44,667 nt of DNA from Candidatus Gastranaerophilales bacterium. Its GTDB lineage: Bacteria > Cyanobacteriota > Vampirovibrionia > Gastranaerophilales > Gastranaerophilaceae. Of the stretch, positions 5,057 through 23,928 are shown piece after piece. The translations under genes and the position numbers were made by a program. The notes under the pieces are model-generated. The model was not told where the DNA came from, ran no database searches, and saw nothing but the letters and a program-made list of their open reading frames with translations. The DNA lies in contig CALURX010000015.1 of NCBI GenBank assembly GCA_944323265.1, positions 1 through 44,667 of the forward strand, in the 5' to 3' direction. Each line of letters opens with the position of its first letter. Positions within the stretch are counted from its first letter, which is position 1.

Positions 5057-5641
5057 ATGACAACAACATTAAAAGGATTGGAATTTGACCCGGGATTTGC
5101 GCCGTATATACTGGCTCTCAGGGGTACTATTGAATATTTGTATACTGATATCAACAGATTTAAGAATCTTTCTCAAAGGAAGATGAAATTCAGGCAGTAT
5201 TACAAAAAAATTCTGGAACTTTTTGATAACAATCTGGGCTTTTATGTCGGATGCCTTATGTGGGCAGCGTATATTAAAACCCAGCCGGAACAGGAAATTT
5301 TGAACAATCATTGCCTTGGACAGGAATATGACGAAGAAAGCAATGTATCCGATACAGAATTTATGATTAAGTTTCTGGAACTTTTTCCTAAGGATATGAA
5401 GTATTTTCTCGGCGAAAATTTTGAGTTTGACAGTGATTATTTAAAGATTCTTGAAATGTATAAAGAATTTTTAATTATTAATAAAGGTTTTGTTGAGACG
5501 AAAAATAATACTGACATCAAGCTTCCTGATAAAATGAAAACCGATAATGCAGAAAGTTTTAAAGCAAAGATTGACGAGGTTTTAAAGGAAGAAGACTTAT
5601 CAAAACTTCTGAAATTTAAGGAGTTTGTATGTCAGAAATAA
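5057..5641 (+). CDS. Hypothetical protein upstream of ade
   Basis: 194 residues, soluble, mostly helical, with two Cys in the middle (GCLMWAA, NHCLGQ). No motif or family is recognised. The start has AGGA about 11 bases upstream. Its last 13 bases overlap the start of ade, and the ade Shine-Dalgarno (AAGGAG) lies inside it, so the two are translationally coupled. It may also be co-transcribed with the AAA+ gene 59 bases upstream. Confidence 0.65.
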   Translation: MTTTLKGLEFDPGFAPYILALRGTIEYLYTDINRFKNLSQRKMKFRQYYKKILELFDNNLGFYVGCLMWAAYIKTQPEQEILNNHCLGQEYDEESNVSDTEFMIKFLELFPKDMKYFLGENFEFDSDYLKILEMYKEFLIINKGFVETKNNTDIKLPDKMKTDNAESFKAKIDEVLKEEDLSKLLKFKEFVCQK

Positions 5642-7362
5642 TCAATGTTGCAAGAGGTTTAGAAAAAGCTGATTTGGTTATAAAAAATGCCAATATTGTT
5701 AATGTCCTGTCAGAAGAGATTCATAAAGGCGACATTGCTATTTCAAACGGCATAATTGCAGGCATTGGCGAGGGTTATTCCGGAGGAAAAGAGATTGACA
5801 TAAACGGTGCTTATGTAACCCCTTCATTCATCGATGGTCACGTTCATCTGGAGAGCACAATGATGCTTCCCAAAGAGTTTACAAAACTGGTTCTTCCGGC
5901 CGGCACGACAACAGTAATCATTGACCCGCACGAAATTTCAAATGTTCTGGGGCTTCACGGAATAAGCTTTATGCACGAGGCTGTAAAAAATCTTCCGATA
6001 GATGTTTACACAATGCTTCCTTCCTGCGTTCCTGCAACCCCTTTTGAGACATCCGGATTTGACCTCAACAGCTATGATTTGTCTCTTTTGATTGACAAAC
6101 CCTGGGTTCTGGGAATTGCAGAGATGATGAATTTTCCGGGTGTATTGAATCTTGATAACAATGTTATGGGAAAACTTGAACTTGCAAAGTCAATGGGCAA
6201 ACGGATTGACGGACACGCGCCTTATCTGCACGGAAAAGACTTGTGCGCATATATTGCAAGCGGGGTAAAATCCGACCATGAGTGCACAACACCCGAAGAG
6301 GCAATCGAAAAATTAAGACTCGGAATGTACGTTATGATACGTGAAGGTACTGCCGCAAAGGATTTAGACGCATTGATTCCTGTTTTGAAAAAGTGTAACA
6401 CAAGAAAATGTATCTTTGTGACAGACGACAGGCACCCTGCAGATTTAAAAGAGCATATTAACGGAATGGTAAGACGCACGGTTGAAGCAGGGGTTGACCC
6501 GATTAAGGCGATTCAGGTTGCGAGTTTAAACACGGCAGAATACTTCGGGCTCAAAGATTTAGGCGCGGTCGCACCGGGATATAAGGCAGATATGCTTATC
6601 CTGCCTGATTTAAGAACTTTTAAGCCTGATATTGTAATCAAAAAGGGCTGCATAGTTGCACAGGACGGAAAATTGACCGTGCAGCTTCCTGATACAGAGG
6701 CTTTGTCTATGCGCGGCTCGGTGAATGTTAAATGGATTACGATGGAAGATTTTACGATTAAAGCAGAAGGAAGTAAAGTCCGCGCTCTGGAAGTTATTCC
6801 GCACCAGTTGATTACAAAATCCATTGTATCTGACGTTAAAATTCAAGACGGAAATGCGGTCAGCAATGTTGAGAATGATACCCTAAAAATTTGCGTAATT
6901 GAAAGGCACAGAGCAACCGGAAATATTGGTAAAGGATTTGTAAAAGGCTTCAACCTGAAATGCGGTGCCATAGCTTCAACTGTTGCGCACGATTCACACA
7001 ACATGATTGTTGTGGGGACAAATGATTATGATATGTACACAGCGGCGGTTGCGCTTATCAAATCACAGGGAGGAAAAGTTGTTGTAAAAGACGGCGAAAT
7101 AATATCTGAGCTTCCGCTTCCGATTGCAGGGCTGATGTCAGACAAGGAGTTTGATTATGTCGTAAATAAATGTGATGAACTTAATCAGGCTGCACATTCA
7201 ATTGGGTGCACATTAGAAGATCCGTTCATGACAATGGGATTCCTGTCACTTCCTGTAATTCCGGAACTTAAGGTTACAGATAAAGGCGTATTTGATACTA
7301 ACAAGCTTGATTTTATAGATATTTTTCAAACCGCAGATACGGAAGTTCAGCCGGTTTGTTAA
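5629..7362 (+). CDS. ade: Adenine deaminase
   Basis: 577 residues, the usual length for the two-domain Ade of the amidohydrolase superfamily. It converts adenine to hypoxanthine and ammonia in purine salvage. Metal-ligand motifs are intact: DGHVHLEST (HxH with the following Glu), IIDPHEISNVLG, DGHAPYL, SDHECT and TDDRHP. After the metal-binding barrel, the Ade C-terminal domain shows HRATGNIGKGFVKGFNL, STVAHDSHNMIVVGTND and a final DPFMTMGFLSLPVIPELK. The start overlaps the preceding gene and uses AAGGAG. The stop TAA abuts a structured intergenic element. Confidence 0.95.
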   Translation: MSEIINVARGLEKADLVIKNANIVNVLSEEIHKGDIAISNGIIAGIGEGYSGGKEIDINGAYVTPSFIDGHVHLESTMMLPKEFTKLVLPAGTTTVIIDPHEISNVLGLHGISFMHEAVKNLPIDVYTMLPSCVPATPFETSGFDLNSYDLSLLIDKPWVLGIAEMMNFPGVLNLDNNVMGKLELAKSMGKRIDGHAPYLHGKDLCAYIASGVKSDHECTTPEEAIEKLRLGMYVMIREGTAAKDLDALIPVLKKCNTRKCIFVTDDRHPADLKEHINGMVRRTVEAGVDPIKAIQVASLNTAEYFGLKDLGAVAPGYKADMLILPDLRTFKPDIVIKKGCIVAQDGKLTVQLPDTEALSMRGSVNVKWITMEDFTIKAEGSKVRALEVIPHQLITKSIVSDVKIQDGNAVSNVENDTLKICVIERHRATGNIGKGFVKGFNLKCGAIASTVAHDSHNMIVVGTNDYDMYTAAVALIKSQGGKVVVKDGEIISELPLPIAGLMSDKEFDYVVNKCDELNQAAHSIGCTLEDPFMTMGFLSLPVIPELKVTDKGVFDTNKLDFIDIFQTADTEVQPVC

Positions 7363-7522
7363 TGAGTTTGCGGAAAAATTCACATTTTTCTCGCAAACTC
7401 TCGGGAACGGTTTCACCTCAGGTTGTATGCTATCCCGCACACAACCTGAGGTTCACACACCTAAGGTCGGATTTGAAAAACCTCAAAAATTTGTCAATTT
7501 TTGGGTTTTTCTGCATCCTCTA
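7363..7522 (+). repeat. Three-hairpin intergenic element, copy 1
   Basis: Hairpin A (7364-7400) pairs GAGTTTGCG with CGCAAACTC plus an A/T inner stem. The linker TCGGGAACGGT follows. Hairpin B has arms 7416-7430 and 7437-7451 around the loop TATCCC, one mismatch. The linker GTTCACACACCTAA follows. Hairpin C (about 7477-7508) has loop TGTC. The copy ends with GCATCCTCT. A second copy lies at 16552-16836 with the same loops and linkers but altered stems. It could be a structured RNA, a mobile palindromic repeat or an elaborate terminator. Confidence 0.7.
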
Positions 7523-7541
7523 ATATAAATTTTGTTTCGTA

Positions 7542-7547
7542 TATAAT
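7542..7547 (+). promoter_or_regulatory. -10 hexamer of lepA, positioned for a leaderless mRNA
   Basis: TATAAT, followed by exactly six bases and then the lepA ATG at 7554. With the usual -10 to +1 distance, transcription would begin at the A of ATG. No Shine-Dalgarno is present between them. No good -35 is visible. Confidence 0.5.
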
Positions 7548-7553
7548 AAAACT

Positions 7554-9356
7554 ATGAAACACAGAGACAATGTACGGAATTTTTGTATAATAGCGCACAT
7601 AGACCACGGCAAATCCACACTGGCAGACAGACTTCTGGAAGCAACAGGAACAATAGCCGAAAGAGATATGCAGAACCAGCTTCTGGATACAATGGATATT
7701 GAGCGCGAACGCGGAATCACGATTAAACTTAACGCTGCGAGGATGAATTACACCTCAAAAGACGGCGAAAAATATATTTTTAACCTTATAGACACACCGG
7801 GGCACGTAGATTTTTCTTATGAAGTTTCCCGCTCTCTTGCAGCATGCGAAGGCGCTCTCTTGATTGTTGACGCAACTCAGGGTGTGGAAGCGCAGACGTT
7901 AGCTAATGTCTATATGGCAATAGAACAGAACCTTGAAATCATTCCTGTAATAAACAAAATCGACCTTCCTTCTGCCGATGTTGAAAGAGTAAAGGAAGAA
8001 ATCGAAGAAATATTAGGAATCGATACCTCCATGGCAATCCCGGTAAGCGCCAAAACAGGAATCGGGATTGATGAAGTGCTGGAAGCTATAGTTAAATATG
8101 TTCCGCCTCCTGTTGATACCACAGAAAAGCCCCTGCGCGCTCTGGTTTTCGACAGCGCATACGACCCTTATCTGGGAACTCTTTGTTTCTTCAAAATCAT
8201 GGACGGTAAACTTAAGCTTGGCGACAAAGTTAAGTTTATGGCGTCAGGAAAAGAGTACGAAGTAGTAGAACTCGGCTATCTTACACCGCACAGAGTACAG
8301 GTAAACGAGCTTATATGCGGAGATGTAGGATACTTCGCAGGCTCAATAAAAGAAATTACCAGATTTGTAGGTGATACGGTAACCCACGTAGAAAATCCGG
8401 CATCTGAGCCGCTTCCGGGGTATAAAGAAGCGCTTCCGATGGTATTTTCAGGAATGTATCCTGTTGATAATGAAGATTACCACGAACTCAAAGAAGCCTT
8501 AGAAAAGCTTAAGCTCTCCGACAGCTCGATTACGTTTGAGCCTGAAACTTCAAGTGCTTTAGGGTTCGGTTTCCGCTGCGGATTCTTAGGCATGCTCCAC
8601 ATGGAAATTGCACAAGAAAGGCTCGAAAGAGAATATGACCTTTCAATCGTTACCACAGCGCCTTCCGTAGTTTATAAAGTGCACAAAACAAACGGTGAAG
8701 TCGTTGAAATAGACAACCCGGCAAATCTTCCTGCAGCACAATACAGAGACTATATTGAAGAACCGTACGTCAAAGTCTCAATCATTACTCCGAATGACTA
8801 TGTCGGAACTCTTATGGATTTGTGTCAGACAAAACGCGGTATTTTTATTAATATGAATTACCTTGACAAAGTCAGAGTTGATTTAATCTATCACCTGCCT
8901 CTAAGCGAAGTTATAACAGACTTCTACGACCAGTTGAAGTCCCGCTCAAAAGGGTATGCAAGCCTTGATTACGAATTTGTAGATTACAAACGCTCAAAAT
9001 TGATTAAGCTTGATATCATGCTTGCAGGCGAAGTGGTGGACGCACTTTCGGTTATTTGTCACGAGGATAATGCATATTATATCGGCCAAAAACTCACTGA
9101 AAAATTAAAGACCATAATTCCGCGCCAGATGTTTGAAGTTCCGATTCAGGCAGCAATAGGCGGAAGAGTTATTGCAAGAACCAATATTAAAGCGCTGAGA
9201 AAAAGCGTGCTTGATAAATGCTACGGCGGTGATATAACAAGAAAACGCAAACTGCTTGAAAAACAGAAAAAAGGTAAAAAACGCATGAAGGCAGTAGGAC
9301 GTGTGGAAGTTCCGCAAGAAGCGTTCATGGCGGTTCTAAGCCTAGATGAAGAATAA
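7554..9356 (+). CDS. lepA: Elongation factor 4 (LepA), ribosomal back-translocase GTPase
   Basis: 600 residues, full length. The GTPase domain has G1 AHIDHGKS, G2 RGITIK, G3 DTPGHVDF, G4 NKIDLP and G5 SAKTG. The EF4-specific end is clear: [19 protein letters not shown] in domain III, and the C-terminal [23 protein letters not shown]. It acts on elongating ribosomes and in 30S biogenesis. The start is unusual: no Shine-Dalgarno, and a TATAAT ends 7 bases before the ATG. Confidence 0.97.
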
Positions 9357-11167: not shown

Positions 11168-11331
11168 AATAAAAAATCCTTTTTGTTGCTATTGGTATAT
11201 ATACTATATATCATATTATAAACCATGTTATAGCTTATTTCAACCCTTTATATGTATGAGATTGTAACAATTGTAAAGATTTGATACTTTTATTGATATT
11301 CGGCGCTGATTTTTAATCCCTCACGCATAAG

Positions 11332-11645
11332 AGTTGAAAAGTTGAAAAGTTGAAAGGTTGAATAGTCGTTTAGGAGAAGTTATGGGGGTTGAGAAGTTGA
11401 AAAGTTGAAAGGTTGAATAGTCGTTTAGGAGAAGTTATGGGGGGTTGAAAAGTTGAAAAGAAGTTAAAACTCTATTCACCATTCACTATTCACTCTTGTT
11501 CACTCAATACGCACCCTTCACGCTTCACGCCTCACCCTTCACGCTTATTTCACTTGGTCACCTATTCACCTGATCACTTGATCACTAAAACGCACGCTTC
11601 ACCCTTCACGCCTCACCCTTGGCCACCTAATCACTCAAAATCCCC
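11332..11645. repeat. GTTGAA/TTCAC low-complexity repeat, copy 1 (with a 55-bp tandem unit)
   Basis: The left half is made of GTTGAAAAG-like units and includes a tandem duplication with a 55-bp period (GGTTGAATAGTCGTTTAGG at 11356 and again at 11411). The right half is many TTCAC/TCACC units spaced 7-11 bases apart (such as CACCCTTCACGCCTCACCC). The same two-part structure occurs inverted at about 42145-42290 and partly at 44540-44585. Confidence 0.75.
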
Positions 11646-15928: not shown

Positions 15929-16554
15929 GTTCAGAAGAGTTATTTGAATTTGATGCCGGCTACAATAGTCCGGTAATCGGGACAGATGAGGCAGGGAGAG
16001 GGCCTGCTGCAGGCGGAGTTTTTGCTGCCGCAGTCAGGTTTGAAAAAATCACGCCCGGACTTATGAGGGATTTAGAAATACTTAACGATTCAAAAAAACT
16101 TACCCCCAAAAAGCGTGAAGCTATTTACGACACAATAAAAAACAATACCTGCAATAAAATCGTGTGCGTAGAAGTTGAAGAGATTGAAAAGATAAATATT
16201 TTGAATGCGTCTTTAAAAGCCATGAAAACCGCGTGTGAAGGGATTATCAAAGACGGCAATATCTTAACCCTTGTAGATGGGAACAAACTTATAAAGAATT
16301 TTAGCTTTCCGCAGAAATTTGTGATAAAGGGCGATTCCAAATCCGCTTCAATTGCCGCCGCAAGCATACTTGCAAAAGTAACCAGAGACAGATATATGCA
16401 AAAGCTTCACGAAGAGTTTCCGATGTATAACTGGGCTAAAAACGCCGGATATTTAACCAAAGAACACATTGAAGCAATAGACAAATACGGACTTTGCAAA
16501 TACCACAGACCTTCGTTTTTGAGAAAGCATTTTGCCAAACAAATGACATTATGA
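15925..16554 (+). CDS. rnhB: Ribonuclease HII
   Basis: 209 residues, normal length. It cuts the RNA strand of RNA-DNA hybrids and removes misincorporated ribonucleotides. The catalytic motif GTDEAGRGPAAGG holds the first Asp and Glu; LNDSKKLTPKKRE, LVDGNKL (third Asp) and KGDSKSASIAAASILAKVTRDRYM complete the RNase HII signature. The end PMYNWAKNAGY...YGLCKYHRPSF is also typical. Start coupled to the regulator (ATGA). Its TGA stop is the first three bases of the structured element that follows. Confidence 0.95.
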   Translation: MSSEELFEFDAGYNSPVIGTDEAGRGPAAGGVFAAAVRFEKITPGLMRDLEILNDSKKLTPKKREAIYDTIKNNTCNKIVCVEVEEIEKINILNASLKAMKTACEGIIKDGNILTLVDGNKLIKNFSFPQKFVIKGDSKSASIAAASILAKVTRDRYMQKLHEEFPMYNWAKNAGYLTKEHIEAIDKYGLCKYHRPSFLRKHFAKQMTL

Positions 16555-16836
16555 GTTTGCGAGAAAAATTAAAATTTTTCTCGCAAACTCTCGGGAACGG
16601 TGTCAGGGGTAAAAAATTTTGCCGGTAGTATAAACTACAAACTTGGAAGTAAAGCTAAAAGGTTGTGTGCTATCCCGCACACGACCTGATGTTCACACAC
16701 CTAAAATCAGATTTGAAAAGCGTATTGCCGGCAGAGGCTGAAGGCATTTGCGCAGGCAAAAGCCGAAATGCCGTTTTACGCCGGCAAGCAAGAACCACGA
16801 AAAATTGTCATTTTTCGACTTTTTCCGCATCCTCTT
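16552..16836 (+). repeat. Three-hairpin intergenic element, copy 2 (with extra insertions)
   Basis: Hairpin A is a perfect 18-bp stem (16553-16570 with 16573-16590) and is followed by the same TCGGGAACGGT linker as copy 1. An insertion of about 45 bases follows. Hairpin B (16661-16670 with 16677-16686) has the same TATCCC loop, then GTTCACACACCTAA. A second insertion (about 16723-16788) is itself an inverted repeat (TTGCCGGC / GCCGGCAA) enclosing GGCATTT / AAATGCC. Hairpin C has loop TTGTCA. The copy ends in GCATCCTCT. The left edge supplies the rnhB stop codon and the right edge meets the stop codon of the exporter gene. Confidence 0.7.
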
Positions 16837-17761
16837 ATGTTAAAAATTCTATTGCCATGCCGGATATAATACTAATCATTGTAAGTATAAATATAACCAG
16901 CATAGTGTCTCTAAAATCATTGTTTTTCAAAAGTACCAGAAGCCCCAATCCCGCATTGGAAAGCAGCCCTGCCATACAGGCTGCAAAGCTTATTGAACCT
17001 TTCACAAGCATCATGGTTAGTCCTATTGATACAGCGCAGTTAGGAATTAATCCCGCAACAGACGCTAAAATAACCTGAGTATATTTACCTCCGGCAATAG
17101 AAGTAATTGAATAATGTTCCATGCAGAAGTTTAAGACAAGAGTAATTATCAGAATAAACACAAAAATATTAATTGTGTGCATTACAGGATGTATAATAAG
17201 CTCTCTTTTTGAGCCGTGTTCAATATCATGCTTGCAGCACCCTTCCTCTATCTTTTCATCAGGAAGATCTGTTTTTAAAGGTTCTTTTTGGTGCAAGGCA
17301 AGGTCAATAAAATACCCCATCAATATTGCAATAAAAAGCTTTATTCCGACAATCGGAATAATCAGATAAGCTTTCTCGGGAATCGCAAGCAGTACAGGAA
17401 TTGTCTCATCAGATGTTGCAAGGTATACGGCAATTAAGGTTCCTCTTGTAATAATTCTTCTGGAATACAGACTGCTTGCCATAACGGAAAATCCGCACTG
17501 AGGAAAAATCGCCGCAAGGCTTCCTATAAGAACTCCATAATCTCCTGTTTTTCTAAGAGAAGAATTAATTTTATCCGCATAATAAAATTCTAAAAATTCA
17601 ATCAAAACAAAGATAAAAAACAGGAAAGGAAGTAAATGAATACTGTCTGCAACAGCGTCCGCAGCCCATGGAGCAATCGGAAGCTTTTCTATAATTGAAT
17701 CCACAGGCGCGAAAATAAATTCGTTTAAACTGTTAATTTTATCCAAAACAGAAATCAGCAT
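16835..17761 (-). CDS. Putative manganese/heavy-metal exporter (ArsP_2-type multi-TM protein)
   Basis: 308 residues with about 8-10 hydrophobic helices in two related halves separated by a polar His/Cys-containing loop (EEGCCKHDIEHGSK). Each half carries a similar motif: FPQCGFSV in the first and IPNCAVSIG in the second. This doubled P-[QN]-C pattern is the hallmark I associate with the 'putative manganese transporter/arsenic efflux' family PF11449. Substrate is not proven. A DtxR/MntR-type regulator encoded nearby on the other strand supports Mn. Its start overlaps the tsaC end by 7 bases, so tsaC and this gene form one minus-strand operon. Confidence 0.75.
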   Translation of the reverse strand: MLISVLDKINSLNEFIFAPVDSIIEKLPIAPWAADAVADSIHLLPFLFFIFVLIEFLEFYYADKINSSLRKTGDYGVLIGSLAAIFPQCGFSVMASSLYSRRIITRGTLIAVYLATSDETIPVLLAIPEKAYLIIPIVGIKLFIAILMGYFIDLALHQKEPLKTDLPDEKIEEGCCKHDIEHGSKRELIIHPVMHTINIFVFILIITLVLNFCMEHYSITSIAGGKYTQVILASVAGLIPNCAVSIGLTMMLVKGSISFAACMAGLLSNAGLGLLVLLKNNDFRDTMLVIFILTMISIISGMAIEFLT

Positions 17762-19192: not shown

Positions 19193-19555
19193 ATGGCAGT
19201 ACCAAAGAAAAGAACAGGGCACAGCGCTCAAGGAAAAAGAAGATCAAACTGGAAGGCAACCAAGCCTGAATTAACCACTTGCCCGAATTGCGGAGCAAAA
19301 GTTTTGACACACACAGTGTGCACAGCTTGCGGTCAATATAAAGGCAGAGTTGTTTCAAGAAAAGCAGAAGGTTTTGTAGAAGCAGGCGAAGTAAAAGAAG
19401 CTAAAAAACCTGCTAAAAAATCAACAAAGAAAGCAACAAAACCGGCAGCAGAAGAAACAAAGGTTGAAGAAACTAAAGCTGAAGAAACAGTTGTTGCAGA
19501 AGAAGCAAAGGCTGAAGAAGTAAAAGAAGAAAAGACAGAAACTCCGGAAGCTTAG
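19193..19555 (+). CDS. rpmF: 50S ribosomal protein L32 with an unusual acidic/basic C-terminal tail
   Basis: 120 residues, about twice the usual 55-60. Residues 1-57 are a normal L32: MAVPKKRTGHSAQGKRRSNW followed by a four-Cys zinc ribbon (CPNCG ... CTACG). Residues about 58-120 are a low-complexity tail of Ala, Lys, Glu and Thr made of units such as KPAKK, TKVEET, KAEE and EAKAEEVKEE. There is no frameshift; the tail reads through cleanly to TAG at 19553-19555 and has the same codon character as its surroundings. It sits in the normal place, between yceD and plsX. Confidence 0.93.
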   Translation: MAVPKKRTGHSAQGKRRSNWKATKPELTTCPNCGAKVLTHTVCTACGQYKGRVVSRKAEGFVEAGEVKEAKKPAKKSTKKATKPAAEETKVEETKAEETVVAEEAKAEEVKEEKTETPEA

Positions 19556-19593
19556 TTTTTTTAGGAATAGAAAAAGATAAAGGGAAGAGTTAA

Positions 19594-20649
19594 ATGACAA
19601 GAATAGCTATAGACGCGATGGGAGGCGACCACGCTCCTTTTGAGATAATAGCAGGTGCAGTATGGGCAGCAGCAGAATATGGTGTAGCTCTGGAATTAGT
19701 CGGCAAGCAGGATAGAATCGAGCACTGTCTCGAAGTTATTCAACAGGAAGGTTTTTTATCCGACTGCGGTAAAGCCGGCAGACGCAGACGAGTGAGAGTT
19801 GATGTAAAATCTCTTGATATCAAAATCACTCACGCGTCAGAAATTATCGAAATGGGCGAAGCTCCTGGGCAGGCTATTCGTAAAAAGAAAAACTCTTCAA
19901 TAGTATTAACGGTAAATTCAGTTGCAACAGGAAGCTCCGATGCTCTTGTTGCAGCAGGTTCTACCGGTGCTGCTATGGCTTCAAGCTTATTCGGTTTGGG
20001 CAGAATCCCGGGAATAGACAGACCGGCGATTGCAGTTACACTTCCGACAATGAAAAAACCTATTGTTATTATTGACGCCGGAGCTAACAGCAATTGCACA
20101 CCGCAAATGCTTAGACAGTTTGCAATTATGGGTATGACTTTCTCTAAAAATGTCTTAGGCATTGAAAAACCGAGAGTTGGTGTTTTAAATATCGGCGAAG
20201 AAGCAGGTAAAGGCAACGAACTCGCTCAAAATACTTATAATCTTCTTGAAGAAGAAAAAGAAAAGTTTAACTTTATGGGTAATATTGAAGGAAGAGAATT
20301 ATTCCTGAACCTCTGCGATGTTGTAGTTTGCGACGGTTTTGTCGGCAACGTTGCATTGAAAATTACGGAAGGCACTTCTTCAATGTTGTTCAGAATGATA
20401 AAAAGCGAGTTTAAGTCAGATTTTCTCGGCATGATTATAGGACTTCTTGCTAAACCTTTCATGAAGAGAATTTATGAAAAGATTAACTATGAAGAATTCG
20501 GAGGCGCTTTGCTTCTCGGCGTAAAAGGCATTACTGTTATCTCTCACGGAAGAAGCAGAGCTTACGCTATTAAAAATGCGGTAAGAGTTGCAAAAGAAGC
20601 CGTTGAAACAGGTGTTAACCGTAAGATTTCAGAAACAATTGAAGGTTAA
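19594..20649 (+). CDS. plsX: Phosphate acyltransferase PlsX
   Basis: 351 residues. It makes acyl-phosphate from acyl-ACP, the first step feeding PlsY in membrane phospholipid synthesis. The N-terminal RIAIDAMGGDHAP is diagnostic, as are ATGSSDALVAAGSTGAAMA, LPT..KPIVIIDAGAN, GVLNIGEEAGKGN, DVVVCDGFVGNVALKITEG and GGALLLGVKGITVISHGRS. A basic insertion (GKAGRRRRVRV) near residue 65 is slightly unusual. AAGGGAAG lies upstream of the ATG. A terminator follows, so fabH is likely transcribed separately. Confidence 0.95.
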   Translation: MTRIAIDAMGGDHAPFEIIAGAVWAAAEYGVALELVGKQDRIEHCLEVIQQEGFLSDCGKAGRRRRVRVDVKSLDIKITHASEIIEMGEAPGQAIRKKKNSSIVLTVNSVATGSSDALVAAGSTGAAMASSLFGLGRIPGIDRPAIAVTLPTMKKPIVIIDAGANSNCTPQMLRQFAIMGMTFSKNVLGIEKPRVGVLNIGEEAGKGNELAQNTYNLLEEEKEKFNFMGNIEGRELFLNLCDVVVCDGFVGNVALKITEGTSSMLFRMIKSEFKSDFLGMIIGLLAKPFMKRIYEKINYEEFGGALLLGVKGITVISHGRSRAYAIKNAVRVAKEAVETGVNRKISETIEG

Positions 20650-23045: not shown

Positions 23046-23113
23046 CACCCTAACCCTCTCCTCTTAGGAGAGGGAACACAACAGAATAGACGTAGGTCAG
23101 GCACCGCCTGACA
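23046..23113 (+). repeat. Direct repeat flanking the ORF6N gene, left copy
   Basis: Contains hairpin CCCTCTCCT / AGGAGAGGG, then ACACAACAGAATAGACGTAGG, then hairpin GTCAGGC / GCCTGAC. The right copy at 23837-23903 shares the middle block exactly, but its second stem is GTTGGG / CCCAAC, so the base pairing is kept with different bases. Confidence 0.8.
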
Positions 23114-23137
23114 AAAATTGAAAATTGAATATAAAAC

Positions 23138-23225: not shown

Positions 23226-23279
23226 AATCATTTATCCGGGACAGTTGTGGAACTTGTTTCGGAATCTTACAAAAATCAA

Positions 23280-23304
23280 GACGTAGGTCAGGCACCGCCT
23301 GACA
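23280..23304 (+). repeat. Partial copy of the flanking repeat just before the ORF6N gene
   Basis: GACGTAGGTCAGG and its hairpin partner GCCTGAC repeat the right half of the 23046 copy exactly, ending 16 bases before the ORF6N start. Confidence 0.75.
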
Positions 23305-23320
23305 GAAACTTAAAACAAAA

Positions 23321-23836: not shown

Positions 23837-23903
23837 CACCCTAACCCTCTACTGAGAGGAAAGGGAACACAACAGAATAGACGTAGGTTGGGCAATCCCA
23901 ACA
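23837..23903 (+). repeat. Direct repeat flanking the ORF6N gene, right copy
   Basis: It begins one base after the ORF6N stop codon. It shares CACCCTAACCCTCT and ACACAACAGAATAGACGTAGG with the left copy; the first hairpin is degenerate and the second (GTTGGG / CCCAAC) is changed on both arms. Confidence 0.8.
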
Positions 23904-23928
23904 AAAATTTAAAATAAGGAGAAGATTA

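Follow-up and report, generated by a model that had tools for sequence, protein, structure and literature searches.

Two copies of an element with three hairpins were present in the window, i.e. the whole stretch of 44,667 nucleotides that was analysed. Copy 1 (157 bp) was a complete short form of a mobile element. It followed the TAA stop codon of the adenine deaminase gene, this codon being itself part of the duplicated TAAT that flanks the copy, and the next gene was lepA. Copy 2 (282 bp), a long form with two extra inserts, was located at the end of rnhB, the TGA stop codon of which takes its T from the end of the duplication and its GA from the start of the element. The following features were assigned (window coordinates, strand):

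7360..7363, +: target duplication flanking copy 1 on the left (TAAT, 4 bp), which overlaps the TAA that ends the adenine deaminase gene (5629-7362)
7364..7520, +: copy 1, complete short form (covariance model match 7364-7520, E 4e-42, copy 1 itself being in the model)
7364..7378, +: terminal inverted repeat of the left end, GAGTTTGCGGAAAAA
7364..7400, +: hairpin A, the palindrome at the left end, its 3' arm having a bulged base
7401..7414, +: conserved linker 1, TCGGGAACGGTTTC
7415..7452, +: hairpin B, 16-bp stem varying among copies, conserved tip GCTATCCCGC
7453..7468, +: conserved linker 2, TCACACACCTAAGGTC
7469..7518, +: hairpin C, the palindrome at the right end, with TGTC as its loop
7506..7520, -: terminal inverted repeat of the right end; its reverse complement, GAGGATGCAGAAAAA, is identical to the left repeat at 12 of 15 positions
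7521..7524, +: target duplication flanking copy 1 on the right (TAAT)
16549..16552, +: target duplication flanking copy 2 on the left (TTAT), the final T of which makes up the rnhB stop codon (16552-16554) together with the element's GA
16553..16834, +: copy 2, the 282-bp long form
16606..16659, +: additional segment (GGGGTAAA...GCTAAA) that separates linker 1 from hairpin B and displaces the outer left arm of B; similar segments in L322 and L323
16720..16791 (end approximate), +: additional palindromic module, GCGTATTGCCGGCAGAG...GCCGGCAAGC, located where hairpin C has its base; L072, L105, L149 and L192 have related modules
16835..16838, +: right target duplication TTAT of copy 2

Both copies contained hairpin A, linker GGGAACGGT, hairpin B with its tip, linker TTCACACACCTAA, hairpin C (loop sequence TGTC) and the terminal sequence GCATCCTC, as described by the first-pass annotation, the borders of which were corrected to 7364-7520 and 16553-16834. 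Imperfect terminal inverted repeats GAGnnTGCGGAAAAA were found on both ends of each copy, the element beginning with GAG and finishing with CTC. Hairpins A and C were palindromes built on the left and right end repeats, respectively, and their inner arms displayed consistent differences, namely the bulged base in A and TTTG for GCGG in C. The greater length of copy 2 was due to its two inserts, the first of which precedes hairpin B (about 16606-16659) and the second of which occupies the base of hairpin C (about 16720-16791). Predicted folds were far more stable than those of shuffled sequences (z of -9.4 and -6.0 for copies 1 and 2, respectively; equal stability in 0/200 shuffles each). Stem B barely differed between the two copies and only one-sided changes were seen (A.C to G-C; T-A to T.G), so that this pair alone is no proof of compensated change.

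Other repeats were also observed in the window. A dispersed palindromic repeat (AGACGTAGGTCAGGCACCGCCTGACAAAAATTGAAA, with CACCCTAACCCTCTCC...GAGAGGG upstream) occurred in three copies within 900 bp (23046-23124, 23279-23315 and 23837-23915) and is possibly a second mobile repeat family. Between genes at 11325-11460, a 55-bp unit (GTTGAAAAGTTGAAAAGTTGAAAGGTTGAATAGTCGTTTAGGAGAAGTTATGGGG) was arranged in tandem and followed by CACCCTTCACGCTTCACGCC repeats at 11506-11620.

The genome (G000) contained six full-length copies and one deleted copy. Besides copy 1, short forms were found at C8:7735-7893, C8:4426-4582 and C14:19764-19921. A second long copy, on C38 (about 19495-19781), was identical to copy 2 at 280 of 282 positions and lay at a different site with a different duplication (ATAT, vs TTAT for copy 2). 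The deleted copy, from C10:13524 onward (C10:13524-13582; L009, L027), consisted of hairpin A fused to the right end and had kept its AATT/AATT flanks.

Distribution was evaluated by several searches. Copy 1 as a query matched 25 of 57 genomes (its own and relatives), and the end motif GAGnnTGCGGAAAAA occurred in 41 of 58 genomes of the genus, up to 46 times per strand, with near zero matches for the reversed motif. A pattern made of tip B and linker 2 was found in more than 115 stretches of a species-level genome collection; where titles named the organism, this was mostly Candidatus Gastranaerophilales. A covariance model built from 28 copies matched 25 of 146 genomes of the order, belonging to six families, and when 244 genomes of the phylum were searched, the 16 with matches were all from the order Gastranaerophilales. 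Copies were non-coding, 157-290 bp long and dispersed at many sites.

Some individual occurrences deserve mention. One match to tip B and linker 2 was located on a contig classed as viral (L225; IMGVR_UViG_3300032167_007567, 11304-11336), a possible vehicle between species. Candidatus Adamsella avium, from another family of the order, harboured a single copy (L029, G044:C3:377099-377253) that was 92% identical to copy 1, as if it had been recently transferred. The region 7150-7750 of the window was identical at 601/601 bases to a locus of another species-level genome (L255, G026:C30), several other loci being 14-19% different; this may reflect either recent transfer or a shared contig.

The mobility of the repeat was evident from its insertion sites. 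An exact 4-bp flanking duplication was present in 52 of 99 copies, whereas shuffling the flank pairs 300 times gave 2.9 on average and never more than 9; flanks agreed over 5 bp in only 4 of the 99. Duplicated 4-mers were AT-rich, and the target tended to have TTRACA on its left side and TGTAAA on its right side. Precise empty orthologous sites with a single target were recovered at G000:C27 and G000:C4 for the insertions at G026:C10 and G026:C19, respectively. Conversely, G026:C68 corresponded to the locus of the G000:C38 insertion without the element, this empty site being inexact owing to small indels. The copy at G000:C8:4426 splits a short ORF which, once the element and one CTTA are removed, reads MAREEKVFTLRIKNELFERIKKEAENNKRSITKHIEYILEKSLEK and is the gene of an Arc-like DNA-binding protein. 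Duplications, the two precise empty sites and this interrupted gene show that the repeat is a mobile element, one of the two natures that had been proposed from the window sequence. Terminal inverted repeats, a fixed-length 4-bp duplication and a short, non-coding, multi-copy, dispersed element with empty sites are the hallmarks of miniature inverted-repeat transposable elements (MITEs).

Several variant forms were encountered. The simplest was a bare end-to-end hairpin of 35 bp (L216, duplication AAAA/AAAA), and solo hairpins of about 55 bp were also flanked by duplications (L056, AATA; L063, GAAT). Since such forms devoid of hairpin B carry duplications, hairpin B would not be strictly needed for movement. 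In longer forms, the loops or bases of hairpins contained inserts, either palindromic or of the GGGGTAAA type. Hairpin A was inverted in several copies, as was the tip of B in L050, L191 and L202. Segments of the GGGGTAAA type (window 16606-16659; L322, L323, L191 and L188) recurred inside hairpins of different copies and genomes and are possibly a second small mobile element nesting in the MITE. L217, L223 and L224 displayed the same kind of ends and 4-bp duplications around other interiors (GATTCTTCGG...CTCAGAATGAC type; CTATAGGCGGAGTAGCTT type); these ends suggest that a single mobiliser may serve several MITE families.

Of the 84 copies whose flanks were long enough for neighbouring genes to be examined, 12 overlapped an ORF of at least 90 aa. 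The upstream gene was directed towards the element in 37 cases and away from it in 45, and 11 of the 37 genes reading towards it ended within 7 bp. The downstream gene read away from the element (co-oriented) in 58 cases and towards it (opposed) in 24, a bias that is unexplained. Two features which the window copies had seemed to share fared differently at this scale. A constant orientation relative to the upstream gene did not hold, copies elsewhere being found in both orientations. The start at a stop codon was correct insofar as both copies lie at gene ends; it reflects an insertion preference for AT-rich gene ends, with no fixed relation to the upstream gene, and copy 2 itself supplies the rnhB stop. 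In most relatives, the element is missing there and rnhB stops no more than a few codons away from this point.

Stem evolution was analysed on 28 divergent copies, with 500 shuffles and a control in which partners were slid by one to three columns. Standard pairs accounted for 95.4% of the three hairpins (84.1% shuffled), 30 pairs were changed on both sides (16.4 shuffled) and two-sided cells amounted to 172 (46.9 +/- 6.9 shuffled). None of these three values was reached in the shuffles (0/500), and sliding the partners destroyed the signal, pairing being then 52.8% at most. The covariance model and covariation check advised by the first-pass annotation led to further copies in the order and to covariation in all three hairpins (172 vs 46.9). 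Its statement that stems B and C change while staying paired was right for the genus; in the window pair, the stem B changes are one-sided. Compensated stem change is real, as a property of the wider family and not of the window pair alone.

The changes themselves showed no strand preference. Stem B was represented by 55 different arm pairs, with 797 Watson-Crick, 27 G.T, 30 A.C and 25 other combinations; G.T being as frequent as A.C, no preference for one strand as RNA is apparent. Single-arm changes prevailed over double ones between close copies (56 vs 7), with 23 transversions, 17 A.C and 13 G.T. On the tree, terminal branches carried 189 pair-breaking and 62 Watson-Crick to Watson-Crick changes vs 25 and 58, respectively, on internal branches (Fisher p 3e-13). 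Mismatches were 53 GT and 55 AC on terminal branches, and 6 GT and 11 AC on internal ones. Neutral simulation on the same tree gave about 4-8 Watson-Crick to Watson-Crick changes in all and 91 or more internal breaks. With breaks on terminal branches and compensated changes on internal ones, copies decay after insertion while propagating lineages keep their pairing. Two-sided changes occurred one pair at a time, adjacent two-arm changes being as numerous as expected (7 vs 7.6). A block-change signature of template switching was sought among these stem changes and not found (7 adjacent vs 7.6 expected), an absence which is neither for nor against template switching.

Conservation extended to other families of the order. 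In G042 and G035, the stems and even the tip of B differed, and the general plan and linker words were kept (GT.TCA[B]TTCAC..(CC)..GGTCGG.TTTGAAAAA), with ends GA(A/G)GATGCGG...CCGCACCCTC and target duplications which, read by eye, were seemingly of 3 bp (CAT, TAG, TTA, CAA). Conservation of the words used in the tip B and linker 2 pattern search is overstated, the loci having been chosen by these exact words; linker 1, as well as the copies retrieved with copy 1 or the covariance model, are free of this bias. Linkers that persist across distant families point to a role in mobility, and conserved linkers and tips would probably be needed for mobility rather than for the host. The depth of this conservation exceeds the strict needs of a MITE and counts against reading the repeat as one, as do the seemingly 3-bp duplications of the G042 lineage and the unexplained 58:24 bias of the downstream genes.

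Taken as a whole, we estimate at roughly 85% the probability that the repeat is a MITE of the order Gastranaerophilales, a DNA transposable element that is non-autonomous, is moved by a transposase acting in trans and retains similar arms in its propagating lineages. Its outer ends would be recognised by the trans-supplied transposase, most likely of DDE type, and insertion at AT-rich sites would generate the 4-bp target duplication. Its body consists of palindromes A, B and C joined by the conserved linkers. Once inserted, individual copies decay regardless of pairing and the copy-producing lineages keep paired arms. Two likeliest causes can be considered for this persistence, acting alone or together. 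One arm may be repaired from the other by replication template switching, which would also explain the inverted tips. Alternatively, badly folded copies may lose mobility, i.e. be removed by selection for mobility. Hairpins maintained by template switching have been described in RNA genes (PMC8794818), and arm homogenisation with spacer inversion in yeast coding inverted repeats (PMC8604942); the inverted tips of A and B fit such a spacer inversion.

A reading that partly overlaps with this one retains the MITE and makes selection for mobility the sole cause, the folded single strand (A, B and C) being the substrate of the enzyme and template switching being excluded. Pairing kept in propagating lineages and not in situ, the lack of strand asymmetry expected of a structure that acts as DNA, the drift of stem B alongside conserved tips and linkers, and two-sided changes arising pair by pair would all suit it. 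However, inverted tips and arm homogenisation require no selection, as template switching can account for them (PMC8794818, PMC8604942), and the forms without B and the bare 35-bp hairpin also have target duplications. We regard it as a tentative possibility, clearly the less favoured of the two. Its more specific version, in which the three hairpins as single-stranded DNA, with their conserved tips and linkers, are the substrate of a putative transposase leaving a 4-bp duplication, seems rather improbable. If true, it would describe a structure-dependent parasite that, throughout an entire bacterial order, evolves through compensated changes in its stems.

It is also conceivable that the host maintains the repeat because it encodes a structured RNA with a function, be it a regulatory sRNA, a UTR element or a riboswitch-like motif, and that covariation results from RNA selection. 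Strong covariation on three hairpins, very stable folds, linkers and tips conserved across families and the excess of copies in sense with the downstream gene (58 vs 24 antisense) are all in its favour. Against this, G.T mismatches did not exceed A.C ones (27 vs 30 in stem B, 53/55 on terminal and 6/11 on internal branches) and recent pairs were freely broken (56 single vs 7 double changes between close copies), a combination which argues against a host RNA function of each copy. Copies were moreover found in both orientations, beside unrelated genes and at non-orthologous sites, and Rfam yielded nothing at the gathering threshold, the best permissive matches (E 0.07-0.2) being far under the cut-offs. 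We consider this reading very unlikely, and the discrete, individually selected RNA first envisaged finds no support in the in situ mutations, which break pairs as if there were no constraint, or in the parity of G.T and A.C. An IS200/IS605-type MITE mobilised as a single strand by an HUH enzyme (PATE or REP-like element) would account for hairpins near both ends and for a strand-neutral structure; terminal inverted repeats and a sharp 4-bp duplication are both foreign to this class, and the target duplications rule out such an origin in practice. As for a chance similarity of two intergenic terminators, to be expected had no further copies existed or had pairing been lost at random, AT-rich hairpins do occur at gene ends, and the many additional copies with the same borders across the order leave it a negligible chance.

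Returning to the MITE, a mobiliser was sought in the order. No transposase-bearing copy was found in the end-pair lists examined or by PF01609 scans, these lists held no exact end pairs 0.8-4 kb apart around a transposase, and none of the DDE_Tnp_1 (PF01609) loci fetched from the genus and order had these ends. DDE_Tnp_1 genes were nearly absent from copy-rich genomes. Metagenome-assembled genomes (MAGs) often lose multi-copy IS elements, and repeats break their assemblies; a missing transposase-bearing copy, a point against the MITE reading, is therefore weak evidence. Several candidates were discarded. Neither the solo end motifs nor the end pairs lying far apart (L186, L201) were accompanied by a transposase, their neighbours being ordinary genes, the end pairs of L186 and L169 had no common duplication, and right-end-only matches in G031 and G033 were solo hairpins of about 55 bp rather than ends of a transposase element. 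IS5 makes a 4-bp duplication. Its ends (E. coli IS5A, GGAAGGTGCGAA[C/T]AAG) were similar to those of the element, with the pattern GAnnnTGCG.A.AA and 9 of 12 fixed positions; this is a resemblance only, and no DDE_Tnp_1 gene was found between such ends in the order. These IS5-like ends may serve as a lead only on the mobiliser.

A literature search returned no published work on transposable elements in Gastranaerophilales, and as far as the literature was searched, this MITE family is new. It is ordinary in kind and unusual in its mimicry of RNA covariation: near-perfect covariation on three stems, usually taken as proof of a structured RNA, is here associated with no RNA-strand preference and with free decay of copies. 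MITE families of this kind can yield false ncRNA calls. They also offer a natural system for asking whether compensated stems arise by selection or by template-switch arm copying.

Correia, ERIC, Nezha and RUP elements duplicate TA on insertion. With these and other bacterial MITEs (Correia/NEMIS, ERIC, Nezha, RUP; PMC10969869), the present element has in common a short AT-rich sequence, terminal inverted repeats, a target duplication, an intergenic bias, a strong fold and the lack of an ORF. It differs from them by its 4-bp duplication, by three separate palindromes with compensated stems and by the lack of homology to the families tested (no Rfam match); no partner IS was found for it. Hairpins attributed to template switching (PMC8794818, PMC8604942) likewise present stem changes on both sides with pairing kept and inverted spacers; they belong to RNA genes or yeast coding inverted repeats, whereas a mobile repeat is concerned here, in which block changes were not seen. 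The BOX elements of Streptococcus pneumoniae (PMC3049150) share the modular A-B-C layout, the hairpins, the non-autonomous character and variable modules, a comparison based on published architecture between different bacteria, with no sequence relation known. BOX elements vary in the copy number of their B module, whereas compensated substitutions account for the variation in the B stem of our element, which also occurs as a bare end-to-end form.
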